From Flavobacterium sp. J372 (GTDB lineage Bacteria; Bacteroidota; Bacteroidia; Flavobacteriales; Flavobacteriaceae), in assembly GCF_024699965.1 (NCBI RefSeq), contig NZ_JAJOMZ010000004.1:1176001-1240000 (forward strand): DNA of 64,000 bases, in the 5' to 3' direction. Below the pieces are notes generated by a model, which was not told the DNA's origin, made no database searches, and worked only from the letters and a program-made list of their open reading frames with translations. Of this stretch, positions 14,193 through 32,667 are shown in pieces. The number at the start of each line of letters is the position of its first letter. Positions within the stretch are counted from its first letter, which is position 1. The translations under genes and the position numbers were made by a program.

Positions 14193-14921
14193 ATGCATAT
14201 TGAAAATTCAGTTATTGATGATACTGTATTCAAAGGAGAAAACATCTTTGTAAAGAACTCCCGTGTCCTGGGCCAGTCTTCCTTATTCAGGGATTGCAGG
14301 GTAACAGATTCTGAAGTTGGCGTTAAATGTATAGTAGGTGACTTCTCAAGAATCATGTCAGGCGTTCTGGGCGGATACAATAAAATAGATCGGAACAGCT
14401 TGATTTACCATTCATCTGTAGGTGATTATTCATATTTTGGTGTTAATGATATTATCATGCACTCGGTAATTGGTAAGTTTTGTGCCATATCTTGGGGAGT
14501 TACTATTGGCGGCGCCAACCATAATTACAGCAAACTATCTACCCATGATTTTTATTATAATGATTTTTATGGTATCAAGCCCATTGAAGAACAGCCTGCA
14601 TATAACAGGTTTAAAAATAAAACCAAGATAGGAAATGATGTGTGGATTGGCGCCAATTCTACCATAGCAAACGGCATTACAATTGGCGATGGCGCAGTGG
14701 TAGGTGCAAATGCAATGGTTACTAAAGATGTACCGCCTTATGCAATTGTGGCAGGTAATCCGGCAAAAATTCTAAAATACAGGTTTAGCGAAAGTATAAT
14801 AAAAGACTTGCTTGAGCTATGCTGGTGGGATTTTCCAAAAGATATTATAACAGACAATTACGATTTATTAAAATCTGATGATATTGAAGATATTATCAGA
14901 AAACTAAAAAAATTAAAATAA
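14193..14921 (+). CDS. CatB-related hexapeptide acetyltransferase
   Basis: A 242-residue left-handed beta-helix acyltransferase of the xenobiotic-acetyltransferase-like group. Hexapeptide repeats run through most of the protein; IGNDVWIGANSTIANGITIGDG and YAIVAGNPAKILKYRF are the usual acetyl-CoA-binding end. The His in GGANHNYS is the likely catalytic base. Position right after the aminotransferase suggests N-acetylation of the dTDP-4-amino sugar, though O-acetylation of the polymer is possible. Its stop codon overlaps the next start (TAATG). Confidence 0.8.
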   Translation: MHIENSVIDDTVFKGENIFVKNSRVLGQSSLFRDCRVTDSEVGVKCIVGDFSRIMSGVLGGYNKIDRNSLIYHSSVGDYSYFGVNDIIMHSVIGKFCAISWGVTIGGANHNYSKLSTHDFYYNDFYGIKPIEEQPAYNRFKNKTKIGNDVWIGANSTIANGITIGDGAVVGANAMVTKDVPPYAIVAGNPAKILKYRFSESIIKDLLELCWWDFPKDIITDNYDLLKSDDIEDIIRKLKKLK

Positions 14922-15941
14922 TGAATATATTAATAACTTCTGCCGGCAGAAGGTCATATCTGGTAAAATATTTTCAGGAAGTACTTAGCGGCAAAGGTAA
15001 AGTATTCGTGTCAAATTCAGCTCCATCGCTTGCAACGCAGGATGCTGACGGTTTTTTTATATCTCCTTTGATATATAGTGATAATTACATTGATGCTATA
15101 TTAGATTTTTGCCATAAAGAAAATATTAAAGCCATAATCTCGGTATTTGATATTGACTTGCTGGTGTTGGCTCAAAATAAACAAAAGATAGGAAAGCAAC
15201 GGTATTAAATTATTGCTTTCAGGCCATGACGTCGTAGAGATATGCAACGATAAATGGAAAACGTATGAATTCCTCAGGTCAAATAATATAGGCACACCTA
15301 AAACCTATAAGAACTTAGATTCTCTTCATCAGGCATTAGACAATGGTGAAATAAATTTCCCAATTGTGATAAAGCCAAGATGGGGCATGGCCTCAATGGG
15401 TATTTATATGGCTGATGACATGAAAGAGCTTGAAGTGTTTTATAATAAGTCGTTAAAAGAAATTGGCAGCAGCTACTTAAAATATGAATCTGCAATAACC
15501 CCTGATGAGATGATAATTTTTCAGGAAAAGCTTAAAGGCCAGGAGTATGGACTTGATGTTATAAATGACCTTGAAGGTAATTTTGTAAAATGTATACCAA
15601 AGTCTAAGCTGGAAATGAGGGCAGGAGAAACAGACCTGGGGCAGGTTGTAGCATCAAAGCCATTTGACGGGCTTGCAGCCAGGCTAAGCGAACTTTTCAG
15701 GCATGAAGTAATTTTGTCTGTTGACTGCTTCGATTGCAGCGATGAACTTAAGGTTATAGAAATGAACTGCAGGATTTCCGGGCATTATCCGCTAAGCCAC
15801 CTTGCAGGTATAAACCTCCCGGCGCAGATTATTGAATGGCTTGAAGGCAAACCAACCAATTCACGCTACTTTGAATATACTGAGGGCCTTTATATCACAA
15901 AAGATCTTGTGCCACGTATTATTGAATATAAAAAACCTTAA
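14921..15941 (+). CDS. ATP-grasp protein, CarB-like (frameshifted)
   Basis: An ATP-grasp enzyme of about 339 residues after correction. The N-terminus ILITSAGRRSYLVKYF and AIISVFDIDLLVLA form the PreATP-grasp fold; FPIVIKPRWGMASMGI carries the ATP-binding lysine, and LKVIEMNCRISGHYPL is the metal-binding site. Such proteins join an acid to an amine with ATP. In polysaccharide loci they may amidate uronic acids or attach amino acids; the substrate is unknown here. The frame breaks at 15191-15192, where removing one G gives QNKQKIESNGIKLLLSGHDV. Confidence 0.8.
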
Positions 15942-15982
15942 TTCACACTGATTAACTGTAGCTGATACATACACATTGCAAT

Positions 15983-17131
15983 ATGAACCTGCACCTGGTT
16001 AATGACGAGAAATTTATAAATGGATCAATAAATACTTTTGAAAGGTTTTATCCGGGCAAAAATATATTTATTGTACAGAAATCAAATTCAAAAAACTGGA
16101 AGCCCCGGTATGTATCAGGCAGTGATGTAAAATTTCTTTCTCTCACAAACCGTAAAGATGTAAATGCAATCAGTGATATTGTAGCCAAAACCGGTGTTAC
16201 CAGCATATTCGTGCATTATCTTACTGATGCTAAGGCTGCCATAGTTAATAATATTAGGCACAAGAACAAGAGTATCAAGACATACTGGATATTTCAGGGG
16301 GCCGACTTATATGGTGTGTTGCACAAAAAGTTTAATTATGAGTTGATAGACAACACTTCTAAACCGGTAAAATCAATTAACCAGCGCATGGCATCAATAA
16401 TCTCCAGAATTAAATTCCTGGCATTTTATCATGCATTCCCATTTGCGTCATACAAAAAGTTCATTAAAGAGCTTGACTATTTTTGCTTTTGGAATCCGTA
16501 TGACTTTAAACTTTTAAAGCATCATTTTGATACGGATGCCGAGTTTAAATACTTTGGTTACAACGCAAGCCTAGCTGAAAATTTACTGCCAAATACAACC
16601 GTTAATAACAGGGTGAATATAATTGTAAATAATTCTGCATCTCAAAACGGAAATCACAGAACTGTTCTTGATAAGCTGCACCTGATAGGTTCAAATGCTT
16701 TTAATAAGGTTGTTGTGCCATTAAGCTATGGTGATAGCGGCGTAAAGAAAGATGTTTTAGAATACGGGCGCACCTTATTTGGAGACAAATTCTTCCCGCT
16801 GACAGAGTTTATGGCCAAAGATGAGTATTTTAAGCTGCTTTACGATATTGATGTTGCTTTTTTCGGTGCCAGAAGGCAGGAAGCGGCCGGTAATATTTTC
16901 CTGTTGCTTGGGCTGGGTGTAAAGGTGTTCCTGCGCAAAGACAACAATATGATACATCTCTTAAAAGATAATGGATTCATATTCTTTATCTTTGAAGACG
17001 ACTTAAATACTGCCGACGATATAAAGCCGCTTACAAGTAGTGAGAAATTGGCAAATAACAAAGCATACCAGGATTTTTATAACCCTGAAAAGCACACTAA
17101 AATGATGGAAAACTTAATTATAAATGTGTAA
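15983..17131 (+). CDS. WecF-like 4-acetamido-4,6-dideoxygalactose transferase (GT56)
   Basis: A 382-residue glycosyltransferase resembling family GT56 (WecF), which transfers Fuc4NAc from dTDP-Fuc4NAc. Family landmarks seen are IIVNNSASQNGNH, the VVPLSYGDSGVKKDVLEYG stretch, FFPLTEFMAKDEYFKLL, and GARRQEAAGNIFLLLGLGVK. Its likely donor, a dTDP-4-acetamido sugar, would be made by rfbB plus the aminotransferase and acetyltransferase just upstream, so gene order supports the assignment. Acceptor linkage is unknown. Confidence 0.78.
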   Translation: MNLHLVNDEKFINGSINTFERFYPGKNIFIVQKSNSKNWKPRYVSGSDVKFLSLTNRKDVNAISDIVAKTGVTSIFVHYLTDAKAAIVNNIRHKNKSIKTYWIFQGADLYGVLHKKFNYELIDNTSKPVKSINQRMASIISRIKFLAFYHAFPFASYKKFIKELDYFCFWNPYDFKLLKHHFDTDAEFKYFGYNASLAENLLPNTTVNNRVNIIVNNSASQNGNHRTVLDKLHLIGSNAFNKVVVPLSYGDSGVKKDVLEYGRTLFGDKFFPLTEFMAKDEYFKLLYDIDVAFFGARRQEAAGNIFLLLGLGVKVFLRKDNNMIHLLKDNGFIFFIFEDDLNTADDIKPLTSSEKLANNKAYQDFYNPEKHTKMMENLIINV

Positions 17132-17133
17132 TT

Positions 17134-18225
17134 ATGAAAATTAGCATTATAGCAGGCGCAAGGCCAAACTTTATGAAAATAGCGCCAATTATACATGCTA
17201 TAAAAAAGGCGCACTCATCTGGCCACAACTTACAGTACCGCCTTATACATACAGGCCAGCATTATGATGAGAAAATGTCAGATACATTTTTTAAAGAACT
17301 CAATATTCCACATCCTGATGCCAACCTTAACTGCGGCGGGGGTACACAGGCAGAGCAAACAGCTGCTATACTGGTAGCGTTTGAGAAAGAACTTCTCGAA
17401 AATCCGGCCGACCTTGTTTTGGTGGTAGGAGATGTAACATCTACAATGGCCTGCGCCATAGTTGCCAAAAAGCTTAATACAAAAGTTGCCCATGTTGAAG
17501 CGGGTATACGCTCATTTGACCTTACCATGCCCGAGGAAATAAACCGTATGGTAACAGACAGCATTACAGATTACTTTTTTACCACAAGCACCTTTGCCAA
17601 TGATAATCTTAAAAAGAGCGGCATAAGCGAAAGTAATATCTTTTTTACAGGAAATGTAATGATTGATACGCTGAACGCTAATAGGAGCAAGTTGCGCAAG
17701 CCTGCCATTTTTGATGAAAACAACCTTGAAAAAGGTAAATATCTGGTGATGACGCTGCACAGGCCGGCCAATGTTGATGAAGGTGAAAAACTTAAGGCGC
17801 TTATTGACGAAATTGTAAATAATGTTGAAGGCCTGCCTATAATATTTCCTATACACCCACGCACAGCTAAGATATTTTCAAGCCTTGGCATAGAGGCAGA
17901 TAATTTGTTGATAGTAGAGCCATTGGGTTATCTTGAATTTAATTATCTTGTGGAGAATTGCAAGGCGGTGATTACCGACTCTGGCGGAATTACAGAAGAA
18001 ACTACCGTGATGGGAGTGCCGTGTATAACACTTCGCGCAAATACAGAAAGGCCTGAAACCGTGAGCATAGGCACAAACGAGCTGATTGGTGTAAACCCGG
18101 AAGCTGTAAAACCCGCTCTTGCAAAATTGTTTGCCGGAGACTGGAAAAAAGGCGGCATACCGGAACTATGGGACGGACACGCTGCGGAACGTATTGTTGA
18201 CTCTTTATTAAAAATCAATGCCTAA
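17134..18225 (+). CDS. wecB: UDP-GlcNAc 2-epimerase (non-hydrolysing)
   Basis: A 363-residue WecB/MnaA converting UDP-GlcNAc to UDP-ManNAc. Family motifs are GARPNFMKIAPIIHAI at the N-terminus, HVEAGIRSFDLTMPEEINR (active-site acids), MTLHRPANVD, and ITDSGGITEETTVMGVPCI in the UDP-binding domain. It lies 2 nt behind the WecF-like gene and overlaps the next glycosyltransferase by 8 bp. UDP-ManNAc may be used directly or oxidised to ManNAcA; no dedicated WecC is obvious beside it. Confidence 0.93.
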   Translation: MKISIIAGARPNFMKIAPIIHAIKKAHSSGHNLQYRLIHTGQHYDEKMSDTFFKELNIPHPDANLNCGGGTQAEQTAAILVAFEKELLENPADLVLVVGDVTSTMACAIVAKKLNTKVAHVEAGIRSFDLTMPEEINRMVTDSITDYFFTTSTFANDNLKKSGISESNIFFTGNVMIDTLNANRSKLRKPAIFDENNLEKGKYLVMTLHRPANVDEGEKLKALIDEIVNNVEGLPIIFPIHPRTAKIFSSLGIEADNLLIVEPLGYLEFNYLVENCKAVITDSGGITEETTVMGVPCITLRANTERPETVSIGTNELIGVNPEAVKPALAKLFAGDWKKGGIPELWDGHAAERIVDSLLKINA

Positions 18226-19323
18226 AAAAAGCATATTAATAGTAACCAAAGCTTTTTATCCTGAGAACTCGCCAAGGGCTTTCCGGGCAACTGAGCTTGC
18301 GAAAGAATTTTCAAGGCAGGGGCATGATGTTACGGTAATGTTGCCCGAGAAAAATGTTGATTATAGTTCTCTTCTGAAAGAATACCCCATCAACATTAAA
18401 ACATTCACTTTGAGATTTTCCAAATTTAAATCATCAAATAAAATATTAGATTCTCTGCTGCACAAATTAAACAGGGCGCTCTTTTTGATGTTTGAATATC
18501 CCAACATTGAAATAATGGGCAAGGTTAAAAAGAGCTTAAAAATACGGCTGCTACTTATGACCTTATGATATCTATAGCCGTTCCTCACCCTATACATTGG
18601 GGAATTGCTGCCGTAAGAAATAAGAAAAACCCCATTGCCCATACCTGGATTGCAGATTGTGGCGACCCTTTTATGGGAAATACTCTTGAGTCTATAAAAC
18701 CGCCATTCTGGTTCAAATACCTTGAAAAGTCTTTTTGCAGGAAAGCAGATTTTATATCTGTACCAACAGAAACATCAGTTAAAGCGTATTACCCTGAATT
18801 TCACTCAAAAATAGTTGTAATACCGCAAGGATTTGATTTTGATGAGATTAAAATAAATCATACAGATGAAGTAAACCCTGTGCCTACATTTGCTTATGCA
18901 GGAGGCGTTGCGTTATCAGGGATTAGGAGCCCTAAATTAATTATCGATTATTTACTGGAATCAGGTAAAGATTTCAGGTTTCATGTATTTTCAAATAACA
19001 GTTCAACCCTCGGAATGTACGCCAAGTATCCTCAGGTTGTGCTGCACCAGCCTTTGCCACGCCCATTGCTTTTGCAGGAGCTTGCCAAAATGGATTTTTT
19101 ATTGAATCTTAATAACGGCACCGTAAACCAAACGCCAAGCAAGCTGATAGATTACAGCCTTGTCAAAAAACCGATATTGGATATTCAGGCAGAGAAGCCC
19201 GATTTTAAGATAATAGATGAATTTTTGAATGGTGATTACCACAACAGTTTTGTAGTGAAAGATCTCGAAAAATTCAGTATACAAAGCGTTGCGCAGAAAT
19301 TTTTTAATCTTATGAAAAAGTAG
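18218..19323 (+). CDS. Glycosyltransferase, GT4-like (frameshifted)
   Basis: A GT-B fold glycosyltransferase of about 368 residues after correction. The N-terminus ILIVTKAFYPENSPRAFRAT and later FAYAGGVALSGIRSPKLII, then NGTVNQTPSKLIDYSLVKKP fit family GT4-type enzymes that use nucleotide-sugar donors at the cytoplasmic face. The frame breaks at the A run 18538-18542; one more A reads through as KNTAATYDLMISIAVPHP. It overlaps wecB by 8 bp, suggesting coupled translation. Donor and linkage are unknown. Confidence 0.75.
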
Positions 19324-19324
19324 T

Positions 19325-20587: not shown

Positions 20588-21705
20588 ATGATCGGGAAAA
20601 TTAAACAGCTATATTTCAGGCTTGGCTGGAAAACTTCCAGAAAGCTTATTGTATTTACCTCTGACGATTGGGGAAGTGTGCGTGTAGCGTCAAATGAAGC
20701 CCGTGAAAATCTTAAGGCAAAAGGCTTCAATATGGATTCAAACAGGTTCAACAGGTTTGATACCCTTGAATCTTCCGCAGATATGCAAGCATTATTTGAA
20801 GTGCTTTCAAAACATAAAGACAAGAATGGTAATAAAGCAGTTTTTACTACCCTTACCAATGTGGCAAATCCCGACTTTAAAAAAATTAAAGAATCAGGTT
20901 TTTCAAAGTATCATTACGAACCTTTCACCGAAACGCTGAAGAATTATCCTGAACATGGCGCTGTATATGATCTATATAAGCAGGGCATTGCCGAAAATAT
21001 TTTCCGTCCTGAATTCCATGGGCGCGAACACCTCAATGTAAACCGGTGGATGGCGGCGCTGCAGGGCGGCAATAAAAATGCGCTTACAGCTTTTGAGCAT
21101 GGCTTTTATATACCGGATAGGGCAGATATGCTTACCGAAGGCGCAAAAAACTTTGGGGCGGCATTTGATGTTGATTTCCCTGCGGATGTCGCAGAACATG
21201 AAGCAATAGTTGTTGATGGGCTAAACTTGTTCCGGCAGCTGTTTGGGTATAAAGCAAAGCTTTTTACGGCTCCGTCACAAATTTATAATTCGGGTATAGA
21301 GAAAACGCTGGCTGCAGAAGGTATAAAATTGCTTGATGTACCAACGCTGCAAAAGATACCAGTAGGCTATGGCAAAGAAAAAAGAAGCTTCGCTACATAG
21401 GGAAGAAAAATGGTTTGGGGCAGCGGTATATTACCCGCAATGCGGTTTTTGAACCAAATATGAATGAATCAGGCAATGGGGTAAACTCTTGCCTGGCCGA
21501 TATAGAAAAGGTTTTTAAGGCTAAAAAGCCTGCTATTATAAGTAACCACCGGGCAGCATTTACAGGTAGTATAGACCCCGCTAACCGCGATAAAGGTGTT
21601 AAGGCACTGGATGAACTGCTCACTGCAATTCTTAAAAAGTGGCCCGATGCTGAATTTATTTCTGCAGCCGCGCTATATGATATAATGAACGGTGCAGGCG
21701 AATAA
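20588..21705 (+). CDS. Polysaccharide deacetylase-like protein, paralogue 1 (frameshifted)
   Basis: A protein of about 372 residues after correction resembling the polysaccharide deacetylase/glycoside hydrolase superfamily. SDDWGSVR near the N-terminus carries an Asp pair in the place of the NodB metal motif, EFHGREH supplies histidines, and IISNHRAAFTGSIDP gives another conserved His. I infer a metal-dependent deacetylase acting on the repeat unit, but no characterised relative is recognised. The frame breaks in the A run 21378-21383. The following gene is a paralogue with the same motifs. Confidence 0.65.
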
Positions 21706-21710: not shown

Positions 21711-22808
21711 ATGAAGATTAAAAAGGAACTATACAGGAATTACATCAATTTATCCGGACTGAAAAGTAAGGAAAAACTTATAATCATTGAATCTGACGAC
21801 TGGGGAGGTATACGAATGCCGTCAAAAGAGGTGTTTGAAATCTTGAAAGGATCTTCAATACGTGTTGAGAAATGCGCCTATTCAAAATTTGATGCTCTGG
21901 AATTAAACAGTGATTATGAAAACCTGTACGAAGTGTTGTCAAAGCACAAAGATAAAGATGGTAACAGCCCTGTAATTACTGCAAATTTTCTTACTGCCAA
22001 TCCTGACTTCAAAAGAATTAAAGAGCATAATTTTGAGCAGTATTTTTTTGAAGATATAACGGCTGCATACAACAATTATGATGGCAGTGACAGAGTCATG
22101 AGCCTAATTAATGATGGTGTGAAAAGCGGTATGTTAAGCCCGCAGCTTCATGGCAGGGAACATATTAACCCAATAGCATGGCTTGACCTTGTAAGGAATA
22201 ACCCTGATGTGAGGAAAGCATTCGATTATAACATAAGCACCTTAAGTTTTGAAAATGTCCCCACAATCAGAGTGCCTTATCTTGCTTCTTTTTACAGGGT
22301 AGGGGGTGAAGATTTTAAAGCTGTGCTCACTGATGCTCACAAACAATTCAGGGAAATATTTAATGAATATCCTAAAAGTTTTATTGCCCCGGTATATGTT
22401 TGGGATGATGAGGTAGAAAACATAACTGCAGGGCTGGGTATTACAAGCATACAAGGCCTGCATTATAAATATGCCGACCAGCAAAAAACAAAAAAACTGT
22501 CAAGGACCCGCAGCACCAAAACACAATACGGGCAGTTAAATATTGTTCGCAATTGCTTTTTTGAGCCAAGTACAAAATCAAATTTTGACTGGGTTAATGA
22601 GTGCCTTAGCGATATAAATGCCGCATTCCGGTGGAACAGGCCGGCTATCATATGCTCACACAGGTTGAATTTTACAGGCCGGATTGACGTAAGTAACAGA
22701 GATACAAATTTGAAGCTGCTTAATAAACTGATAAGTGAAATACTTAAAAAGTGGCCTGATGCCAGGTTTGTAAGCAGCGATGGTTTAAGTAAAAAATTTT
22801 TGGGATGA
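21711..22808 (+). CDS. Polysaccharide deacetylase-like protein, paralogue 2
   Basis: A 365-residue intact paralogue of the preceding gene. Shared motifs in the same order are ESDDWGGIRMPSKEVFE, ANFLTANPDFKRIKE, PQLHGREHINPIAWLD, NCFFEPS and SHRLNFTGRIDVSNRD. Histidines and the paired Asp suggest a metal site as in carbohydrate deacetylases. No signal peptide is visible, so it would act in the cytoplasm on nucleotide- or lipid-linked sugars. It starts 6 nt after paralogue 1 and its stop overlaps the next start (ATGA). Confidence 0.65.
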   Translation: MKIKKELYRNYINLSGLKSKEKLIIIESDDWGGIRMPSKEVFEILKGSSIRVEKCAYSKFDALELNSDYENLYEVLSKHKDKDGNSPVITANFLTANPDFKRIKEHNFEQYFFEDITAAYNNYDGSDRVMSLINDGVKSGMLSPQLHGREHINPIAWLDLVRNNPDVRKAFDYNISTLSFENVPTIRVPYLASFYRVGGEDFKAVLTDAHKQFREIFNEYPKSFIAPVYVWDDEVENITAGLGITSIQGLHYKYADQQKTKKLSRTRSTKTQYGQLNIVRNCFFEPSTKSNFDWVNECLSDINAAFRWNRPAIICSHRLNFTGRIDVSNRDTNLKLLNKLISEILKKWPDARFVSSDGLSKKFLG

Positions 22809-23389
22809 GAAAAATTCTCAATAAGTGGTATCTAAAATACCTGCGCCGTAAGTATCCGAATTTCAAGACGGGTAAAAATGTATCTGTAGATTACGATTCT
22901 CAGTTTATCTTATATAAAAATGAGTTGGTACTAAAAGACAACGTGAAGATAAGGTCGAGACAAAGAGGCTATCATGCCGGAATGCCTTTCGTATCCACAT
23001 TTTTAATTGATGTACCCGGTGCAAAAATAACCGTTGGTGAAAATTGCAGGCTTAATGGTGTATACCTGCATGCACAGAGTGAAATAGCAATAGGGAGAAA
23101 TACAGTTATTGCATCGGGGGTAAATATAATTGATTCAAACGGGCATGTTCTTAATTCTTCAAACCGCACTGTTGGCCGGGATGTGCCTAAGCCCATAATT
23201 ATTGGGGAAAACGTTTGGATTGGCCTTAATTCAATAATTTTAAAAGGCACGGTAATAGGAGATAATTCTATGGTAACCGCAGGTTCAGTAGTAAAAGGGG
23301 ACTTTCCCGCAAACAGTTTAATAAGCGGTAATCCTGCTAAAGTAACTGATATTATAAATATTAAGGATTATGAAATTAGCAATACATAA
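22805..23389 (+). CDS. Hexapeptide-repeat acyltransferase (WcaF/Maa-like)
   Basis: A 194-residue left-handed beta-helix acetyltransferase. Hexapeptide repeats are clear in GENCRLNGVYLHAQSEIAIG, IIGENVWIGLNSIILKGTVI and the closing loop SLISGNPAKVTD. The conserved SNGHVLNSS segment holds the likely catalytic His. In a polysaccharide locus it probably O-acetylates the repeat unit, or re-acylates an amino group freed by the deacetylase-like neighbours. Its start overlaps the upstream stop and its end overlaps the next gene by 20 bp, so all three are probably co-translated. Confidence 0.78.
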   Translation: MRKILNKWYLKYLRRKYPNFKTGKNVSVDYDSQFILYKNELVLKDNVKIRSRQRGYHAGMPFVSTFLIDVPGAKITVGENCRLNGVYLHAQSEIAIGRNTVIASGVNIIDSNGHVLNSSNRTVGRDVPKPIIIGENVWIGLNSIILKGTVIGDNSMVTAGSVVKGDFPANSLISGNPAKVTDIINIKDYEISNT

Positions 23390-24400
23390 GTCAAACTGGG
23401 GTTTTAGTCCGCACTGGATTGAATACTGCGAGAAAAAAGGAATTCCTTTTAAAATAGTTGACTGTTACAAGTCAGATATTATTGAACAGGTAGAGGATTG
23501 TGATGTTTTATTGTGGCATCACCACCATACACTTGCAAAAGATAAGCTCTTTGCCCAGCAATTGCTGTTTGCTTTAGAGCACTCCGGTAAAGAGTATGGC
23601 CTGAATTTAATTCAGGCTGGCACTTTGATGATAAAGTGGCACAAAAGTATTTACTGGAAGCGATAAATGCGCCTTTAGTACCTACAGATGTTTTTTATTC
23701 CAGGAAAGACGCAATAGAATATGTAAAAAATACAGAATTCCCTAAAGTATTTAAACTTAGGGGCGGTGCCGGCTCAAGCAATGTAAAGCTTTTACACACA
23801 AAAGCTGATGCCATGAAGTTTGTTAACCGCGCTTTCGGTGTAGGCTTCGGGTCATATGACAAGTGGGGGAACCTGAAAGAAGTACTGAGAAAATACAGGC
23901 TGGGAAAAAGCACTTCAAGAGAGATTTTAAAGAGCCTGCGCAGATTGATAGTTTCTACAGAGTTTGCAAACATCCACGGAAAGCAGAAGGGGTATATGCT
24001 TTTCCAGAAGTTTATCCCGAATAATACATTTGACATCAGGATAATTGTTATTGGTGACAGGGCTTTTGCAATAAAAAGGATGGTTCGCGAAAATGATTTC
24101 AGGGCATCTGGTAGCGGTTTTGTGCGCTATGACCGTGAAGAAATGGACGAAAGATGTGTGCAGATTTCTTTTGATGTGCAGAAGCGCCTAAATGCTTCAT
24201 GCGTGGCGTTTGACTATGTCTTTGATGAAGATAACAACCCGCTGATTGTTGAAATAAACTATGGCTATGCTATTGAAGTTTATTACCCTTGCCCCGGTTA
24301 TTGGGACAGGGATTTAAACTGGCATGAAGGAAAATTCATTTCGGTACATTTCATAATTGATGACATTGTCAATAGTTTACAAGAAGCCAATAAAGTTTAA
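23370..24400 (+). CDS. RimK-like ATP-grasp protein (frameshifted)
   Basis: An ATP-grasp enzyme of about 343 residues after correction. VFKLRGGAGSSNVKLL holds the ATP-binding lysine and glycine-rich loop, GYMLFQKFIPNNTFDIRIIV the linker, and NASCVAFDYVFDEDNNPLIVEIN the Mg-binding acids. The resemblance is to RimK/GshB-type ligases that form amide bonds. The frame breaks near 23594; one extra G gives EVWPEFNSGWHFDDKVAQ, a usual segment in relatives. Its place beside acyltransferases and an asparagine-synthetase-like gene suggests amino-acid or amide decoration of sugars. Confidence 0.78.
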
Positions 24401-24417
24401 CTCTGCTCATTTTATTG

Positions 24418-24425
24418 TAGATTTG
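24418..24425 (+). promoter_or_regulatory. Possible internal promoter
   Basis: TAGATTTG matches the Bacteroidetes -7 element in the 52-nt gap before the asparagine-synthetase-like gene. TTTA at 24396-24399 is an imperfect -33 partner 18 bp upstream. Confidence 0.3.
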
Positions 24426-24452
24426 TTCCGCTAAAAACCTGATATCCCCCAC

Positions 24453-25658
24453 ATGGAAATTTCACCTAACCTGCAATCATTTTTAAATCTCGGCTATTTT
24501 GTAGAATATGACAAAGGCCGTGATTACTTCAGCCTTGATGGTATTGACCGCGGGAAGTATAAAAACGTATCTAAACCCGCGCTTTTAACTGAAGGCGCAA
24601 AAGTTTTCAGGGATTCTGTTGAACATAACTACCAGCCCGGGCAAAAACATATTGTACCCTTAAGCGGAGGTCTTGACAGCCGGGCTATACTTGCAGCGCT
24701 GCTTGAGCATACCGAGGCTGCAAATATCAGTACAATAACATTTGGTATTCCGGGTGCATGGGATTTTGAGATAGGGCAGATGGTGTCAAAAAAGCTGGGT
24801 ATAAAAAATACACCGTTTGACCTGAACAAGTATGAGTACCGGACTGATGAACTGATGGACATATCTAAGCGAAATAACCAGCAAACAGTGCTGTTTCACC
24901 ACTGGCCGGTATGGATGATGGATAAGATAAGTGAAGGGCAGGTATTGTGGAGCGGCTTTTTTGGAGACCCGGTTGCGGGCAGCCATCAGCCTGCTGTAGT
25001 AACAGACAATCTTGATGCTGCAAAACAATACTTCATCAAGAAAAATAAATATGTTGTATCTGTCCCTTTGCCTAAAGACGATATAGCCGGGATACTTGAC
25101 AGCGGAAATCTTGTGGGTCCTGAAAAGCTAAGCTATGAAGAGCAGCTCGATTTCAGGATAAGGCAGGGAAGATATATTGCCCCACATGTATTGCTTGAAG
25201 GCTATGACTTCAGGCTGCCGTTTACTTACCAGCCTTTTGTTGATTTCTTTTTGAGCTTGCCTCACCATGAGCGTAAAGACCAGAAATTTTATAAAGAGAT
25301 GCTGATGGATGCATTCCCGAAGGCATTTTCATACGTAACAAAAACCACCGCAGGCCTTCCGCTGAATGCACCGGATAAGCTCGTTTACTTATCTAAAGCT
25401 GTCAACAAGGTAATGTCTAAATTTACAGGTAAATCAAAAGGAGTGAACTTCCTTAATTTCAACGACAAGATTCGTGAGAAACAGGACTTAAGGAATGTAA
25501 TAACCGAACATATAAACGATTTCAGCAAAAGGAATATCCTGGATATAGATGCTGTAAAGCTGCTGAATGACCACTTGTCAAATAAAGGCAATTATTATGA
25601 TATATTGCTGGTACTGACATCACTTGAAATTCATTTAAAAACAGGTAAGGTACTGTAA
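24453..25658 (+). CDS. Asparagine-synthetase-like ATP pyrophosphatase without glutaminase domain
   Basis: A 401-residue protein with the asparagine synthetase catalytic domain. The PP-loop is HIVPLSGGLDSRAILAALL at about residues 67-85, and SGFFGDPVAGSH resembles the second substrate loop. The N-terminal glutaminase domain with its Cys2 nucleophile is absent, so ammonia would have to be supplied otherwise, or the acceptor amine is different. Family chemistry is adenylation of a carboxylate followed by amide formation. In this locus a uronic acid is an attractive substrate, but that is inference. Confidence 0.8.
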   Translation: MEISPNLQSFLNLGYFVEYDKGRDYFSLDGIDRGKYKNVSKPALLTEGAKVFRDSVEHNYQPGQKHIVPLSGGLDSRAILAALLEHTEAANISTITFGIPGAWDFEIGQMVSKKLGIKNTPFDLNKYEYRTDELMDISKRNNQQTVLFHHWPVWMMDKISEGQVLWSGFFGDPVAGSHQPAVVTDNLDAAKQYFIKKNKYVVSVPLPKDDIAGILDSGNLVGPEKLSYEEQLDFRIRQGRYIAPHVLLEGYDFRLPFTYQPFVDFFLSLPHHERKDQKFYKEMLMDAFPKAFSYVTKTTAGLPLNAPDKLVYLSKAVNKVMSKFTGKSKGVNFLNFNDKIREKQDLRNVITEHINDFSKRNILDIDAVKLLNDHLSNKGNYYDILLVLTSLEIHLKTGKVL

Positions 25659-25675: not shown

Positions 25676-26578
25676 ATGAGCATTAGGTATAATAATTTTT
25701 TCAGGCCGGCAAGGCAGCTTGTCAAAGAAGTGATGAGCCGTTCTTACCCGTTTGTGATAAAGGTATATCCGTTGCCGGATGTGCGTTCTATTGATGAAAC
25801 GCTGGATGAAATTGTAGAAAACAAAAGGTCGATAGCGCGGTATGGTGACGGCGAGTTTCTTTACCTGATAGACAAGCTGGAGCTCCCATTTCAGCGTTAT
25901 GACCAAAAGCTGGCTAAAAAACTGAAAGACATCCTTGTGCTTGAGGATGAGAAATTTATGGTTGGCCTGCCTATAGGTTACCATTCAATGAATAACCTTA
26001 CCAAAAGCTGTTCCCGTTTCTGGAAATGCCAGATAGCATGGATTTACCCAAGGCTTAAGAAATACCTGAAGCCGGGCAAGGTGTACTATAACGCCAGTAT
26101 GACAAGAGTTTATTCCGGGTTTGAAGACAGGTCGGTTAGCGATGGTTACTTTAAAAAAGTAATGCAGATATGGGATGGGCGTGATGTAGTCTTGATTGAA
26201 GGCGAAAAAAGCAGGCTTGGTGTTGGGAATAATCTTTTCAGCACGGCAAAGAGCCTGAAGCGTGTTTTAGCGCCCAAGCATAATGCTTTTGACAGGTATG
26301 ACGATTTGTATAATGAAGCGCTGAAGCATGATAAATCTACATTGATACTACTTGCTTTAGGCCCAACGGCAACGGCGCTTTCATATGATCTGTACAAAGC
26401 AGGTTACCATACCGTAGATATTGGCAATGTAGATATTGAATATGAGTGGTTCTTGCGTGGCGCAACCAAAAAAATAGTGATTGAAGGAAAATATACGAGT
26501 GAGGTAAAAGGTGGAAGAGAGGTTGACGATGTTGAAGACCCATTATATGCCTCACAAATAATAGCAAGCTATCTTTAA
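25676..26578 (+). CDS. GT-D fold glycosyltransferase (DUF1792/SP_1767 family)
   Basis: A 300-residue protein of the GT-D type, the DUF1792 fold found in streptococcal adhesin glycosylation. The signature RSIARYGDGEFLYL is at about residues 52-65, with the metal-binding Asp-Glu, and LALGPTATALSYDLYKAGYH and IGNVDIEYEWFL follow near the C-terminus. Such enzymes transfer glucose or other hexoses from a nucleotide sugar. It follows the asparagine-synthetase-like gene by 17 nt and stops 2 nt before the next GT. Donor unknown. Confidence 0.8.
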   Translation: MSIRYNNFFRPARQLVKEVMSRSYPFVIKVYPLPDVRSIDETLDEIVENKRSIARYGDGEFLYLIDKLELPFQRYDQKLAKKLKDILVLEDEKFMVGLPIGYHSMNNLTKSCSRFWKCQIAWIYPRLKKYLKPGKVYYNASMTRVYSGFEDRSVSDGYFKKVMQIWDGRDVVLIEGEKSRLGVGNNLFSTAKSLKRVLAPKHNAFDRYDDLYNEALKHDKSTLILLALGPTATALSYDLYKAGYHTVDIGNVDIEYEWFLRGATKKIVIEGKYTSEVKGGREVDDVEDPLYASQIIASYL

Positions 26579-26580: not shown

Positions 26581-27659
26581 ATGGCAAAAAAAATTGCAGT
26601 TATAGGGCCGTGCGTAAACATGGGCGGTATAGAAAGGGCATCATCAACGCTGGTAAACTACGCTGCCGGACAGGGTTATGAAGTAATGTACCTCGCCATA
26701 TTTAAGCACCCCAGGTTTTTTGACCTGCATCCTGCAATTTTTTACAATGAACCAACAGATGGGACAAACGTTTCAAAACTCGATATACCAAAAACGATTA
26801 TCAGAATCAGAAGGGAAATAAAAAAATATAACCCCGATACTATATTAGCTTACAATAAATTTTATGCATCACTGGCATTAATTGCCTTAGCCGGCACCGG
26901 CAGGAAAGTTTTCATTTCGGAGAGATCAAGTCCGTTTTACAAATGGCCGAAAAAATCGAAATTATAAACAAGCTTGCTGTTATTTTAAAAAAGCCTGCAG
27001 GCATAGTTGCCCAGACATCTGTGGCAGCAAAACACCAGGCTAAAAGATACGGTAATATTCCTGTTAAAGTTATCCCAAATGCTGTTCGGAAGATTATACG
27101 ATATCCCGAAATTGCAAGGCAAAAAATAATTCTTGCAGTGGGGCGCTTTGGTGACCCTCTAAAAGGATTCGACCGCCTTGTGGAAGCTTTTGCATTGGTT
27201 GAAGATAAAAGCTGGAAACTTGTATTTGCGGGAGGTTCATCTAATGAAAGTCCGCAGCTTACTCAACGGGCGCGCGAGTTAGGTATACTCGACAACATTG
27301 TTTTTTTAGGGAAAGTTGCCGAAATTGACAAAATTTATGCTGAAGCGGGTATCTTTGTGATACCATCAAGAAGTGAGGGCTTCCCAAATGCATTGGCCGA
27401 AGCTATGACAGCAGGAGTTCCGTGCATTAGCTATGATTTTTACGCGGGCCCGCGCGATATTATCACTCCGGATGTTGACGGGATTTTGGTTGAAGAGGGC
27501 AATATCAATGCATTAGGTATAGCTATGAACAAGCTGATTGCAGACGAAGAGACACGTGAAAAACTTAGTAAAAATGCTGCAGCTAATGCCAATCGTTTCA
27601 ATGAAGATAAGATTGGGAAAGAAGTTATAGATTTTATATTAGGCGGCTGTAAACAATAA
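26581..27659 (+). CDS. Glycosyltransferase family 4 (frameshifted)
   Basis: A GT-B retaining glycosyltransferase of about 359 residues after correction. NMGGIERASSTLVNYA opens the acceptor domain; AVGRFGDPLKGFDRLVEAF and VIPSRSEGFPNALAEAMTAG form the GT4 donor domain, with the E-x7-E type pair in the latter. The frame breaks in the A run 26950-26955; one more A reads WPKKIEIINKLAVILKKP. The C-terminal half resembles GalNAc or glucosyl transferases of O-antigen loci, but donor identity is not determinable. Confidence 0.82.
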
Positions 27660-27662
27660 GAT

Positions 27663-28709
27663 ATGGCAAAAACTACTATTCTGGTTACGGGAGCGGCGGG
27701 TTTTATTGGTTATCACCTCAGTAAAAAATTGCTGGAGCTTGGGAATGATGTGGTGGGCATAGATAACATTAATGATTATTATGATACTGCCTTAAAATAC
27801 GGCAGGCTTACTGATTTAGGTGTTGAAGTAAATGAACCACAAAGCAATAAACATAAGGGTTTCAGCTTTTATAAAGCTGATATCAGTGATAAACCTGCTC
27901 TTGAAGAAATATTCCGTAATAATAGTTTTGACTATATAATTCATCTTGCAGCCCAGGCGGGTGTTCGCTACTCAATTGAAAATCCGGATGCCTATGTTCA
28001 AAGCAATGTACAGGGCTTCATGAATATTCTTGAAATGGCTCGCCATTACAAGCCGAAGCACTTAATTTTTGCTTCGTCAAGCTCTGTATACGGGCTAAAC
28101 GGGCAAATGCCGTTTTCCACATCGCACCATACCGATCACCCTGTAAGCCTTTACGCAGCTACAAAGAAAGCCAATGAAATGATGGCACACTGTTATGCGC
28201 AGCTATACAACATACCATGTACCGGGCTTAGATTTTTTACCGTTTACGGACCTTGGGGCAGGCCAGATATGGCTTACTTCGGGTTTACGCAAAAGATATT
28301 CAATGGTCAGCCAATACAGGTTTTCAATAATGGAGACCTTATGCGGGACTTTACATACATTGATGATATTGTTGATGGTATTGTGAGGCTTATTGATAAA
28401 GTTCCACAAAAAAATGAAGCCTTCGATAATAAGAATCCTGACCCGTCAACATCTTCCGCACCTTATGCCATTTATAATATAGGTAACAATAAACCGGTAC
28501 AGCTAAAGGAGTTTATAGAGACTCTTGAAAATGCGCTTGGCCACGAGGCTGTAAAAGAGTATAAGCCTATGCAGCAAGGGGATGTATACGCTACGTTTGC
28601 TGATGTTTCGGCGCTGAATAAAGTTTGCGGTTTTGAGCCGAAAACGAATATTAAAGAAGGCCTAGGCAAATTTGCTGCATGGTATAAGGAGTTTTACCAA
28701 CAGGCATAA
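27663..28709 (+). CDS. UDP-glucuronate 4-epimerase-like NAD-dependent epimerase
   Basis: A 348-residue extended SDR. LVTGAAGFIGYHLSKKLL is the NAD loop; GIDNINDYYDTALKYGRL is typical of GAE/CapI-type UDP-GlcA 4-epimerases. The catalytic region is FASSSSVYGLNGQMPF with the Tyr/Lys pair in SLYAATKKANE; TVYGPWGRPDMAYFGFT is also characteristic of that group. It would convert UDP-GlcA, made by ugd in the same locus, to UDP-GalA. It sits between two glycosyltransferases with gaps of 3-4 nt. Confidence 0.85.
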   Translation: MAKTTILVTGAAGFIGYHLSKKLLELGNDVVGIDNINDYYDTALKYGRLTDLGVEVNEPQSNKHKGFSFYKADISDKPALEEIFRNNSFDYIIHLAAQAGVRYSIENPDAYVQSNVQGFMNILEMARHYKPKHLIFASSSSVYGLNGQMPFSTSHHTDHPVSLYAATKKANEMMAHCYAQLYNIPCTGLRFFTVYGPWGRPDMAYFGFTQKIFNGQPIQVFNNGDLMRDFTYIDDIVDGIVRLIDKVPQKNEAFDNKNPDPSTSSAPYAIYNIGNNKPVQLKEFIETLENALGHEAVKEYKPMQQGDVYATFADVSALNKVCGFEPKTNIKEGLGKFAAWYKEFYQQA

Positions 28710-28713
28710 AAAG

Positions 28714-29872
28714 ATGGAAAATAACAGCAAAATAAAGATAGCAGTACTGGTAGATAAAGAAATCCCGACTGATCATTCATTTATACAAGGGGTTCTTGAA
28801 AAATCAATGCTGAACGAAAACTGCGAAGTTACATTTGTTGGGTATGCCTCAAATGCTGCTCCTGTTGTCAACGATGAAAGGGGTCCGCTTTCTTACCGTA
28901 CCTGACGGCCCTTCAAACTTCTTCCTTAAAAAAATAGATAAACTGAAGAGTTTTTCTGCAAAAATTGAAGAATCAGGGCCTTATGATGTGCTTTTTACAC
29001 GTAATGACCCTGTTTTTCTTATCATCGCCAAACAGCTCAAGGCGAAGAAAGTTGTAAAACTGCATTTTCACCAGATATCACACCTTCATGCTTTCGCTAA
29101 AGGAAATGCACTCTACAAGATTAAAGCATTCGGGGATAAATTGCTGCGTAAGACTTACCTCAAGTATGCAGACAGGATACTGGTGATAAGTGAACAGATG
29201 AGGACATTTCTTGATAAGGAGTGGCCAATGTTCCGTGATAAATATATTGTTTACCCACTAGGGGTTGAGGTAGGCGATTTTGAAAATCCTAAGCCTTATG
29301 CCGAACGTTCGCATGATGTTGTATACATTGGTACACTTGCGGGAAGCAGGCGTGTCGACGTGATGATTGATGCCGTAAAGATATATAATGAGAAATACGG
29401 TCCGCTTGTACTCGACATTTGGGGTGCATCGCATAACCCGCAGGATGATCAAAACCTGAAACAGCATGCGCAAAACACCGGGATGGCAGATAAAGTAAAA
29501 TTTCACGGTAAAATTTCCCGCCAAGAAGTGCTTGCGAAACTTAAGGATACGAAAATTGGATTGTCGGCCATACCATCTACAGGTATCCTCAACCAGATAT
29601 CGCCTACCAAACTTATGGAATACCTGGCTGCGGGTAGCTGCGTAATTGCAACCGGCGGCATTAAAGACCAGGTTGATATCATAAACGAAGCATATGGCGG
29701 CGGGCTTATTGACTTCAATGCTGGAGAGATTGCAGAGGCAATACATAATATCCTGAATGATAATAACAAAGCTGAAGCATTATCGCAACAGGGCAGGGAA
29801 TACATTTTAGAAAAAAGATCTTATAAAACCATGGCGCAAAAACTTCGTGCCGAAATGCAGCAACTGCTTTAA
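28714..29872 (+). CDS. Glycosyltransferase, GT4-like (frameshifted)
   Basis: A GT-B glycosyltransferase of about 385 residues after correction. Donor-domain motifs are VVYIGTLAGSRRVDVMIDAV, VKFHGKISRQEVLAKLKD, and ILNQISPTKLMEYLAAGSCV, the last with the catalytic Glu region. The frame breaks in the G run 28880-28883; removing one G gives NDERVRFLTVPDGPSNFF. The gene lies 4 nt behind the UDP-GlcA epimerase and 8 nt before another GT. Donor and linkage are unknown. Confidence 0.78.
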
Positions 29873-29880
29873 CATCACCC

Positions 29881-31057
29881 ATGAAACCAAAACTGGTAAG
29901 GATAACCACAGTGCCCATTTCAATGAATATATTATTGAAAGGGCAGCTGGCATTTATGAACCGCCACTTTGAGGTTATAGGCGTTACCGGGCAGGACGAA
30001 AAGCATTTTAAAGAGGCTGGCGAGCGTGAAGGGATACGTATGGCTCCTATATCAATGCAACGCGCAATTAGCCCCGTAAAAGACCTTATATCGCTTTATA
30101 AGCTATATAGTTTTATGCGTAAAGAAAAGCCTGCAATAGTTCATACTCATACACCAAAAGCGGGATTGCTGGGTATGACGGCTGCCTGGCTTGCCGGAGT
30201 ACCTGTAAGACTGCATACTGTAGCGGGATTGCCTCTTGTAGAAACATCCGGCTTTAAGCGTAAGCTTCTGTCTTTTATAGAAAAGATTACTTACAAAATG
30301 GCGCATGAGGTATATCCAAACTCTTACGGGCTTGAAGAGATTATCCTAAAAGAAGAATTCTGCCGAAAGGATAAAATGAAGGTGATTGCCAACGGTAGTT
30401 CAAACGGTATAAATACAACCCATTTTTCGACAGATTTTATTGAAGGAGGCAAACAGGAGTATCGCGAAAAGTTCAGGGCTGATTTAGGAATTAAACCGAA
30501 TGATGTAGTATATAGTTTTGTGGGCAGGCTGAGTTCAGAAAAAGGTATCGCAGAACTTGTAAATGCATTTTCAAAACTGCAAAAGCAGCCTGGTGGTAAA
30601 AATTCAAAACTGTTGCTGGTGGGACCCAATGGAAAAGGATACGGGTATATTAAATCAGGATGTTTTAACAGCTATTGACGAAACCCCAGAAATATTGGCT
30701 GTTGGCAGGCATGACGATATCCGTCCGTACCTGTTTGCCAGTGACATCTTTGCTTTTCCTAGTTATCGTGAAGGCTTCCCTAATGTAGTATTACAGGCAG
30801 GTGCTTTAGGGTTGCCGTGTATTGTGAGTAACATTAACGGCAGCAACGAAATAATCACACATAATCAGAACGGACTAATTGTCCCTGTAAAAAATACGGA
30901 ACAGCTTTTTGAGGCGATGCAGCTATTGCTGAATGATATGCCGTTACGTAAAAGGTTAGCTTCTGCAGCCAGAGATACGGTTGTGAGCCGCTTTAAAAAT
31001 GATATTGTTTGGGAAGCGATACTTCAGGAATATAAAAAACATTTAAAACAGGTATAA
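29881..31057 (+). CDS. Glycosyltransferase family 4 (frameshifted)
   Basis: A retaining GT-B enzyme of about 391 residues after correction. HTHTPKAGLLGMTAAWLAGV and RLHTVAGLPLVETSG form the N-terminal domain; YSFVGRLSSEKGIAELVNAF and FAFPSYREGFPNVVLQAGAL the donor domain, typical of capsular GT4 enzymes such as CapM relatives. The frame breaks at 30625-30629 (ACCCAA); removing one base reads LLVGPMEKDTGILNQ. It stops 1 nt before the phosphoglycosyl transferase, so it may add the sugar next to the initiating residue. Confidence 0.83.
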
Positions 31058-31058
31058 T

Positions 31059-31664
31059 ATGTACAGGTCATTTTTTAAACGTCTTATAGATTTTACGGCA
31101 TCACTTATTGGTTTGCTGCTAATATCGCCGGTGTTTATCATTGTGACAATTATCTTGTACATGCAAAATAACGGCAAGCCCTTCTTTTTTCAGGAGCGTC
31201 CGGGTAAAGATGCAAAGCCGTTTCATATCATCAAATTCAAGTCGATGACGGATGCTAAAGATAAAGATGGAAAACTGCTGCCTGATAACGAAAGAATAAC
31301 AGCTGCAGGAAATTTCATCCGTAAAACATCGCTTGATGAAATTCCCCAACTTATAAATGTACTCAAAGGTGATATGAGCCTGATTGGCCCCAGGCCGCTG
31401 CTATTCAAATACATTCCGCTTTATAATCAAACCCAGATGCGCCGCCATGAGGTGAGGCCGGGTATTACAGGATGGGCACAGGTAAACGGGCGCAACAGCA
31501 TAAGCTGGACAGATAAATTCAATCTTGATATTTATTACATTGATAATCTTTCGTTACTTTTGGATATTAAAATCCTTTTCTTAACCGCTAAAAAGGTGCT
31601 TGTAAGAGAAGGGATTAACCAGAGTGACAGCAGGCCGATGATGCCGTTTGACGGAACTAACTAA
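31059..31664 (+). CDS. Initiating phosphoglycosyl transferase (PglC-like)
   Basis: A 201-residue monotopic phosphoglycosyl transferase that links a sugar-phosphate to undecaprenyl phosphate. It has one N-terminal membrane segment (LIGLLLISPVFIIVTIIL), KFKSMTDAKD, the catalytic Asp-Glu in TSLDEIPQLINVLKGDMSLI, then GPRPLL and RPGITGWAQVNGR. Its short length is that of PglC rather than WbaP. With pglD-, pglE- and pglF-like genes downstream, UDP-diNAc-bacillosamine is a likely substrate. A second enzyme of this class lies at 33304. Confidence 0.85.
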   Translation: MYRSFFKRLIDFTASLIGLLLISPVFIIVTIILYMQNNGKPFFFQERPGKDAKPFHIIKFKSMTDAKDKDGKLLPDNERITAAGNFIRKTSLDEIPQLINVLKGDMSLIGPRPLLFKYIPLYNQTQMRRHEVRPGITGWAQVNGRNSISWTDKFNLDIYYIDNLSLLLDIKILFLTAKKVLVREGINQSDSRPMMPFDGTN

Positions 31665-31668
31665 TATT

Positions 31669-32667
31669 ATGAAAAGACTACTCTACCTCGGATATTACTT
31701 CAAAGAGCTTAACAAAACTAAGATGCAGGCCTTTTTGAAGCATGCATCAAAGGAAACAGGGAAATCTAAAGCCTCACTTTGGGCTGACGCTATAAAATCA
31801 TCGCTGAAATATAATATTTCCATACTCGATTATTTCTATTTCAAATTTTACAGCCTGGATGAAAGACAGCGCGAGGCCTGGGCGGGTACCGGCTTTATGT
31901 ATGAGTACCAGTTAAAGATGAACCCGAAAGAGTATCGTGACGTGCTTGAGAATAAGATAAAATTCATTAAAAAGTTTAAAGACTTTATAATACGCAAAGC
32001 CGCACCGATAGATGAGCTAAAAGCAAATCCGGCAAAGCTGCAGGAATTGATGGAGAATCCAAGCGGCAGGCTTGTAGCAAAAGGTTCTATGGGTCAGGTT
32101 GGAGCTGAAGTTAAAATAATTAAAGTTAAAGATTATTCAGCAGAAAGTCTGTTGAAGTTTATGGATGATAACCAGCTTGACCTGCTTGAAGAATATGTAC
32201 TACAGCACCCTGATATAATGGCGCTTTCACCATCAGGCCTTAATACAGTACGTATTTTTACTCAGATTGAAAACGGCCAGTTGCATTATCTTGGTGCAAG
32301 GCTGCGCGTTACCATAAACAGCGAAGTAGACAATATGGCGGCAGGCAACCCCGCAGCTACAATAAATATAGAGACCGGCGAGGTTGACGGCCCGGGTGTA
32401 TTTAGTGATATAACCCGCAAGCCGGTTACCGTACATCCTGTTACCGGCGTTCCAATAACAGGTTTTAAAGTCCCGTTCTGGCAGGAAATTAAGCAGATGA
32501 TGGAGAAAGCAGTATTTGTAGCCCCTGAAAATCGTTCGGTAGGGTGGGACGTTGCTATTACCGACAAAGGCCCGGAACTTATAGAAGGCAATCATAACTG
32601 GTGCAAGCTGCTGTGGCAGCTGCCTGCTGAAAAAGGCATGAAGGCTGAACTAAAGAAATTTCAATGA
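31669..32667 (+). CDS. Sugar-transfer-associated ATP-grasp protein
   Basis: A 332-residue protein of the ATP-grasp family found next to sugar transferases. LVAKGSMGQVGAEVKIIKV carries the ATP-binding lysine; ALSPSGLNTVRIFTQI and GWDVAITDKGPELIEGNHNW are the signature end with the metal-binding acid and Asn. These proteins are thought to ligate an amino acid or acid to the polysaccharide unit. The start at 31669 is chosen over an in-frame ATG at 31648 lying inside the upstream gene. It overlaps the next start (ATGA). Confidence 0.82.
   Translation: MKRLLYLGYYFKELNKTKMQAFLKHASKETGKSKASLWADAIKSSLKYNISILDYFYFKFYSLDERQREAWAGTGFMYEYQLKMNPKEYRDVLENKIKFIKKFKDFIIRKAAPIDELKANPAKLQELMENPSGRLVAKGSMGQVGAEVKIIKVKDYSAESLLKFMDDNQLDLLEEYVLQHPDIMALSPSGLNTVRIFTQIENGQLHYLGARLRVTINSEVDNMAAGNPAATINIETGEVDGPGVFSDITRKPVTVHPVTGVPITGFKVPFWQEIKQMMEKAVFVAPENRSVGWDVAITDKGPELIEGNHNWCKLLWQLPAEKGMKAELKKFQ

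Follow-up and report, generated by a model that had tools for sequence, protein, structure and literature searches.

The surface polysaccharide locus of Flavobacterium sp. J372 raises the question of why three ATP-grasp ligases and an asparagine-synthetase-type protein without a glutaminase domain (ASN) are encoded together, and whether the four act as one system. The locus spans ~6.7 to 40.4 kb of the window, which is the whole 64,000-nt stretch analyzed here (bases 1176001-1240000 of contig C4, NZ_JAJOMZ010000004.1, in a genome of 3.53 Mb in 7 contigs). The charge and recognition of bacterial surface sugars change with the amide and amino-acid groups they carry, and the enzymes known for this are few. 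The initial annotation had proposed that the four enzymes decorate uronic acids with amides or amino acids, perhaps as a new decoration system. Judged by sequence, all four probably make amide bonds, and the uncommon part of the locus is that the place of a complete AsnB in a sister locus is taken here by a member of a glutaminase-less AsnB family. The best reading is that of known polysaccharide amidation (by WbpS-type AsnB and ATP-grasp amidoligases) into which a glutamine-independent synthetase would have been swapped; that the locus was recombined from modules and makes a sugar polymer with amide groups appears to us an even chance.

The glutaminase-less synthetase and its position in the locus

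ASN was found to match the Asn_synthase domain PF00733 at residues 50-128 (38.4 bits, cut-off 21), and the PP-loop SGGLDS was present, as annotated initially. The absence of the glutaminase was also borne out: in the profile alignment (probability 99.5%), ASN covered residues 177-628 of the 631-aa complete AsnB, which leaves ASN without an N-terminal Cys2 glutaminase domain, and no open reading frame of at least 60 aa in the window matched a GATase profile at E <= 1e-4, which leaves no stand-alone glutaminase partner there. The predicted model of ASN (predicted local distance difference test, pLDDT, 94.5) superposes with the synthetase portion of AsnB-type enzymes and has the AsnB fold; the PP-loop sulfurtransferases TtuA and LarE matched this fold as well. 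At least 498 family matches were obtained among 6000 candidates, and the 120 listed members have 346-431 residues, so the missing glutaminase half is a trait of the family. Among 40 members, the SGGxDS motif was invariant (40/40) and the conserved lysine was kept in 38, and the position of the motif glutamate (SGEGADE in several complete AsnBs) was F or Y in 39, with F in ASN. When 12 complete AsnBs were compared by pattern, five had SGEGADE, that of the sister locus had SADGGDE, and six gave no pattern match. The SGEGADE glutamate and the conserved lysine are taken by us to be catalytic in AsnB. Elsewhere in the J372 genome, a complete-length AsnB frame of 550 aa lies at C4:1466968-1467858, and a 397-aa frame has a weak Asn_synthase match at C4:1335134-1335502 (19.7 bits, below the cut-off).

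Relatives of the locus were searched for in 199 genomes (own included), 120 of them other members of the same genus. Thirteen stretches (L114-L126) were compared gene by gene, namely 11 of the 12 places with strong matches to the sugar-transfer-associated ATP-grasp family ATPgrasp_ST (all but that of G121) and the stretches around ATP-grasp 2 in G095 and G024. The sister locus, L121 of genome G055, shares its gene order with the right part of the window (40-78% identity), and it carries one complete AsnB of 631 residues, which lies after the deacetylases and before the GT-D transferase. At the position of this AsnB, the window carries a cassette (22805-25658) composed of an acyltransferase, the RimK-like ATP-grasp 2 and ASN. 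The left part of the window was syntenic with L119 of genome G087, in which the epimerase, flippase, aminotransferase, acyltransferase, ATP-grasp 1 and WecB genes were 65-89% identical. Since the left part follows L119, the right part follows L121 and the cassette is its own, the locus is, by its gene order, a mosaic of two layouts found in relatives plus that cassette. A second sugar transferase (33304) is present in the window and absent from L121. The window and L121 are a natural swap, with much the same right half and either a complete AsnB or its glutaminase-less relative plus an ATP-grasp, and their two polymers bear on the function of the whole ASN family.

The RimK-like gene has a steady place in the close relatives. 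Close and intact relatives of ATP-grasp 2 (51-55% identity) were found in four genus members (G065, G095, G100 and G120), and weaker ones in G024 (42%), G032 (32%) and two genomes of the same order. In stretches L114-L117 (Pfam-checked for L114, L115 and L117, and checked with our own profile for L116), a PGA_cap gene is followed by a complete AsnB (GATase_7 plus Asn_synthase) and then directly by the RimK-like ATP-grasp, an AsnB-RimK order present in all four close carriers. All four also belong to the nine other genus members in which ATPgrasp_ST scored above 100 bits; three more distant genomes (G121, G139, G173) reached this score, and at E <= 0.001 the family was matched in 126/199 genomes, mostly by weak partial matches, with 40 over the cut-off. 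The chance of finding all four among nine of 120 is 1.5e-5 on the assumption of independent genomes, which they are not. The two genes were 7-9 kb apart on the same contig in three of the four carriers and on different contigs in G095.

The three ATP-grasp proteins and the surrounding genes

The assignment of the three ATP-grasp genes to different subgroups was confirmed by Pfam and NCBIfam matches. The N-terminal piece of ATP-grasp 1 (14921-15205) matched PF21360, PylC-like_N (82.5 bits), and the second piece (15213-15938) matched ATPgrasp_Ter (48.8 bits), ATP-grasp_3 (44.9), ATP-grasp_4 (39.6), RimK (33.6) and CPSase_L_D2 (29.0). "CarB-like" is a fair label for this protein: the best NCBIfam match was NF009404 (carbamoyl phosphate synthase-like; 215.5 bits, below the cut-off of 316), to which the intact relative in L119 scored 305.2 bits. 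This relative (L119:5671-6681) was 73% identical to the first piece and 70% to the second, and lies ~11 kb from the ATPgrasp_ST gene of the same genome, G087. The nearest structure was 2pn1, followed by the amino-acid ligase 3vot. The C-terminal piece of ATP-grasp 2 was assigned to RimK, PF08443 (35.1 bits, cut-off 21), and scored 47.4 bits against TIGR00768 (RimK family alpha-L-glutamate ligase), far below the cut-off of 143.4; the intact relative in L115 scored 44.4 bits. The family is very large, given that 7627 of 7998 scored candidates matched an intact relative. ATP-grasp 3 is a full member of ATPgrasp_ST (PF14397), with 2428 matches among 3996 candidates, and the named relatives of ATP-grasp 3, and those of a genus member's ATP-grasp 2, were mostly from Flavobacterium. 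We take Iyer et al. 2009 to be the source of PF14397, and to our knowledge no function has been proven for this family. No TupA-like Pfam family was matched at E <= 0.001 in 14921-15205, 15213-15938, 23636-24397 or 31669-32664, two of the genes being split and thus scanned as pieces.

One neighbor of ATP-grasp 3 was constant. In all 11 stretches having ATPgrasp_ST, and in the window, the gene adjoins a sugar transferase, and ATPgrasp_ST therefore belongs with the amino-sugar module. The CarB-like ATP-grasp 1 sits in a separate block that is common to G087, and L119 has ATP-grasp 1 and 3 together without an AsnB. In L121 and L126, AsnB and ATP-grasp 3 occur without a RimK-like gene within the 19.9 kb examined.

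The locus also contains dehydrogenases, epimerases, a flippase, an EpsG-like protein, many glycosyltransferases, two sugar transferases, PglD/DegT/PglF-type amino-sugar genes, an export protein and a Wzc-like protein, and is presumably of the Wzx/Wzy type. Uronic-acid genes are present beside the ligases, namely the UDP-glucose dehydrogenase, the HexNAcA-type dehydrogenase and WecB (Table 1). The best solved match of the 27663 protein was 5u4q (430 bits), named dTDP-glucose 4,6-dehydratase by its depositors; the protein may be a uronate 4-epimerase. The dehydratase at 35167-37146 is presumably of the PglF/WbpM type.

Two putative deacetylases precede the cassette and belong to one family, in which the motifs DD, HGREH and HRxN were invariant among 12 aligned members (the 21711 protein and 11 from relatives), as were the metal-binding residues D29, D30, H147, H151 and H317 expected of CE4 enzymes. 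For the predicted model of the 21711 protein (pLDDT 85.5), the closest structures were those of GH57 enzymes and polysaccharide deacetylases (3qbu, 3rxz and ArnD 8t0j), and its sole Pfam match was Glyco_hydro_57 (22.4 bits), with no match to a Pfam polysaccharide deacetylase model.

Table 1. Genes of the polysaccharide locus discussed in the text, with positions in the window
Feature	Position	Strand	Remark
Nucleotide-sugar dehydrogenase, HexNAcA type	7757-9028	+	188 bits to structure 4r16
UDP-glucose 6-dehydrogenase	9040-10431	+	648 bits to structure 5w4x
DegT-type aminotransferase	13105-14187	+	upstream of ATP-grasp 1
Hexapeptide acyltransferase	14193-14921	+	directly upstream of ATP-grasp 1
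ATP-grasp 1, PylC/CPS-like	14921-15941	+	split by frame change at about 15190-15213
UDP-GlcNAc 2-epimerase WecB	17134-18225	+	330 bits, cut-off 210
Putative polysaccharide deacetylase 1	20588-21702	+	split by frame change near 21397
Putative polysaccharide deacetylase 2, CE4/GH57-like fold	21711-22808	+	motifs DD, HGREH, HRxN
Hexapeptide acyltransferase	22805-23389	+	first cassette gene, where L121 has complete AsnB
ATP-grasp 2, RimK-like	23370-24400	+	split by frame change at about 23590-23663 (pieces 23370-23663, 23636-24397)
ASN, PP-loop asparagine-synthetase-type protein without glutaminase domain, 401 aa	24453-25658	+	one frame
GT-D fold glycosyltransferase	25676-26578	+	directly downstream of ASN; in L121 downstream of complete AsnB
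Short-chain dehydrogenase/reductase-type sugar epimerase/dehydratase	27663-28709	+	galE 151 bits, below cut-off 262
Sugar transferase	31059-31664	+	adjoins ATP-grasp 3; relative adjoins ATPgrasp_ST in 11/11 stretches
ATP-grasp 3, sugar-transfer associated (ATPgrasp_ST, PF14397)	31669-32667	+	one frame; 148.5 bits, above cut-off 31.4
PglD/NeuD-type acyltransferase	32664-33293	+	
DegT aminotransferase, LegC-like	33961-35100	+	score just below cut-off
4,6-dehydratase of PF02719 kind	35167-37146	+	

Distribution of the ASN family and the reading of the locus

In the phylum search, 69 of 395 genomes gave an ASN match at E <= 0.001, and values below 1e-50 were obtained only for J372 itself and G329 (189 bits); by their frame lengths, the other matches are probably mostly complete AsnBs. 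A family profile (E <= 1e-20) was matched in only one of 398 genus genomes, that of J372. In both searches at most 4 candidates per genome were scored, so that a copy may have been missed. When public contigs were searched, the single sequence gave no loci and the alignment gave 78, the best 28 of which (L016-L043) were analyzed with up to 10 kb on each side (several were shorter) and with profiles of the three ATP-grasp subfamilies; the ASN gene was not called by the open reading frame caller in L027, L034 and L040. According to the record labels, these 28 loci span Bacteroidota, Bacillota, Elusimicrobia, Planctomycetota, Micavibrio, haloarchaea and others. ATP-grasp profiles were matched in five of them (L022, L025, L026, L028 and L038, with L025 and L038 from two strains of one species), and the three profiles found none in the other 23. 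A fixed four-enzyme system was dropped on this count. PGA_cap was found in L019, L022 and L033 and a complete AsnB in L017 and L024, and the GATase profile matched only inside AsnB-type genes (L017 and L024, weakly L022).

The most telling of these loci was L022 (Bacteroidota): within ~10.4 kb it combines ASN and a weakly AsnB-like gene that matches no Pfam family with two genes each for PGA_cap and ATP-grasp and one gene resembling phosphatidylserine decarboxylase. The last of these (L022:18458-19276; PF02666, 138 bits) stands beside the two ATP-grasp genes, not far from ASN, and could supply an ethanolamine-type amine. Two tandem ATPgrasp_ST-like genes directly precede the ASN-family gene in Anaerophaga (L025:7644-9996) and Marinilabilia (L026:7560-9967), and three glutaminase-less ASN-family genes stand in tandem in a Chloroflexi locus (L036:9815-13837). 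Among 100 of the 150 neighbor genes (16 loci; L021, L027, L029, L031 and some long or other genes were left out), 27 were PF13692 group 1 glycosyltransferases, five ATPgrasp_ST and four PGA_cap. Counted genome-wide in the 20 genomes holding 20 ASN-family loci, RimK was matched in 16 and ATPgrasp_ST in 14 (seven over the cut-off).

In several phyla, AsnB-type genes of either form, complete or glutaminase-less, have a PGA_cap (CapA-like) neighbor (L114:18550-19680, L115:12591-13721, L117:13757-14884, L019:8904-9989, L022:8877-10016 and L033:8654-9784), and that of L114 also weakly matched the lasso-peptide epimerase model MslH (70.9 bits, cut-off 700). Poly-gamma-glutamate synthesis was considered because of this adjacency and rejected, since the PGA_cap profile found no match in the window.

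The families and the exchange of AsnB for the cassette were read from the sequence itself; for the substrates, the products and the order of steps, we infer the following. The dehydrogenase, epimerase and PglF/DegT/PglD genes would make uronate-containing and diamino sugars. In the sister locus, AsnB would turn a uronic acid into a uronamide with glutamine, like WbpS. ASN would activate the carboxyl group with ATP as an acyl-adenylate and, because no glutaminase is present, would take its nitrogen from free ammonia, a small amine or an amino acid. The deacetylases at 20588 and 21711 may free amino groups, which the ATP-grasp ligases would acylate through acyl phosphates, with ATP-grasp 1 and 3 using amino sugars and ATP-grasp 2 working next to ASN. 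In its boldest form, the proposal is that the ~400-residue family, which extends from Bacteroidota to Bacillota and archaea, acts as a uronate amide synthetase independent of glutamine that joins non-ammonia amines or amino acids to polysaccharide carboxyls, and that with a RimK-like ATP-grasp it replaces WbpS-type AsnB in one recombination step, the product changing from uronamide to N-substituted (amino-acid) uronamide. We regard this as tentative and, taken whole, rather unlikely.

Several results weigh against the main reading of the locus. The PF00733 match of ASN spans only ~80 residues, and against TIGR01536 (glutamine-hydrolysing asparagine synthase) the protein scored 30.8 bits, with a cut-off of 267.1. 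Because ASN occurs in a single genus genome, no second genome is known to have the four-enzyme set; because 23/28 other ASN-family loci have no ATP-grasp match, the two are not bound to occur together. L024 has both synthetases, the start of its ASN being overlapped by a complete AsnB, so that replacement of AsnB by ASN is not the rule everywhere, and such coexistence favors different products over simple replacement. ATP-grasp 1 and 3, moreover, are linked to amino-sugar genes and not to uronate genes. What stands of the amide-decorated uronic acids initially proposed are the amide-forming families, the uronate dehydrogenases and the recurrence of some of the parts in relatives; a joint action of all four enzymes on uronic acids is not supported in the form proposed, given the constant sugar transferase beside ATPgrasp_ST, the G087 block around the CarB-like gene and the many ASN loci without an ATP-grasp. 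ATP-grasp ligases in such loci should hence not all be taken as uronate amidases.

The alternative closest to even probability is that the ATP-grasp ligases N-acylate the amino sugars of the DegT/PglD/PglF modules with hydroxy or amino acids, make no uronate amide, and leave ASN as the sole possible carboxyl-amidating enzyme. The constant pairing of ATPgrasp_ST with a sugar transferase points this way, as does the place of ATP-grasp 1 after an aminotransferase and an acyltransferase both here and in L119, and a deacetylase-family member stands directly beside ATPgrasp_ST in L114, L115, L116, L118 and L123. The Qui2NAc4N of the F. psychrophilum O-polysaccharide carries 3,5-dihydroxyhexanoate; the acyl group is, however, credited to a PglD homologue and an acyl carrier protein and not to an ATP-grasp (PMC6519341), and the only capsule ATP-grasp amidation found in the literature acts on the carboxyl of GlcA (PMC11800379). 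It is also quite possible, yet doubtful, that there is no joint system at all, and that four ordinary accessory genes of a hypervariable locus were joined by recombination and act on different sugars or residues. The mosaic of two layouts, the partial sets of L119, L121 and L126, and the restriction of ASN to one genus genome agree with this; the co-occurrence of RimK-like, AsnB and ATPgrasp_ST genes in 4/4 close carriers does not, nor does the position of the cassette in the place of a likely functional analogue.

Two further alternatives concern the activity of the proteins themselves. ASN may make no amides, being a PP-loop enzyme of other chemistry (e.g., sulfur transfer) or inactive; the F or Y at the glutamate position and the fold matches to TtuA and LarE would fit, and we consider it improbable. 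It is more improbable still that ATP-grasp 1 and 2 are true pseudogenes in a decaying locus. Both are split in this assembly, in which ASN and ATP-grasp 3 are single frames. When the frames were tested against intact homologues from relatives (identity of the best match 45% or more), however, 11 of 27 testable window genes (6742-42076) were split, flippase and export genes included, and 16 were whole, the relatives being whole; residual assembly indels are for this reason likelier than decay, which was held unlikely. The about equal identity on either side of the ATP-grasp 1 break also points to indels. Near-identical copies of ASN (98%, source jgi) and of ATP-grasp 3 (99%) were found in the database, both with a longest contig of 491,987 bases and so probably from one separate record, which likewise speaks against decay.

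Comparison with known systems

In the open-licence literature, outside which most subscription journals lie, no description was found of the glutaminase-less family, of its exchange for a complete AsnB or of the four-gene combination, nor did the phrase "sugar-transfer associated ATP-grasp" occur in the part searched. Amidation of uronates as such is published for both enzyme types, AsnB (PMC7468200) and ATP-grasp (PMC11800379), and "new decoration system" was too strong a term for the locus. A third report describes a Vibrio exopolysaccharide with glycine-amidated guluronic acid (PMC3901696).

Cj1438C of Campylobacter jejuni, a TupA-like ATP-grasp amidoligase, is described as amidating a uronic acid in the capsule (PMC11800379). 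The present locus resembles that system in having ATP-grasp enzymes in a capsule-type locus as candidates for such a bond; it differs in that Cj1438C is fused to a glycosyltransferase, whereas the ATP-grasp proteins of the window are free-standing and, among the pieces scanned, without a TupA-like Pfam match. No difference was seen between ATP-grasp 3 and the PF14397 family.

With beta-lactam synthetase and carbapenam synthetase, ASN shares the AsnB-type synthetase fold. These enzymes activate a carboxyl group and take a nitrogen that is not released from glutamine; they retain an inactive glutaminase domain and carry out a ring closure inside their substrate. ASN, unlike them, has no such domain at all.

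The nearest parallel is the Wbp/Vim linking-sugar pathway of P. gingivalis, in which PGN_1234 is a WbpS-type, glutamine-dependent AsnB for uronate amidation and in which deacetylation by VimE and re-acylation with an amino acid by VimA were proposed (PMC7468200). In general scans of the window genes, with no dedicated search made, the Wbp set (WbpB, WbpD, WbpE) and VimA did not turn up. The likeness to the WbpS system lies in a surface-sugar pathway that includes both an AsnB-type synthetase and a CE4-type deacetylase, with uronate-forming genes nearby, and the complete AsnB of L121 holds the very place of ASN. The differences are that ASN lacks the glutaminase domain and that the amino-acid step, attributed there to VimA (PMC7468200), has the ATP-grasp enzymes as its candidates here.

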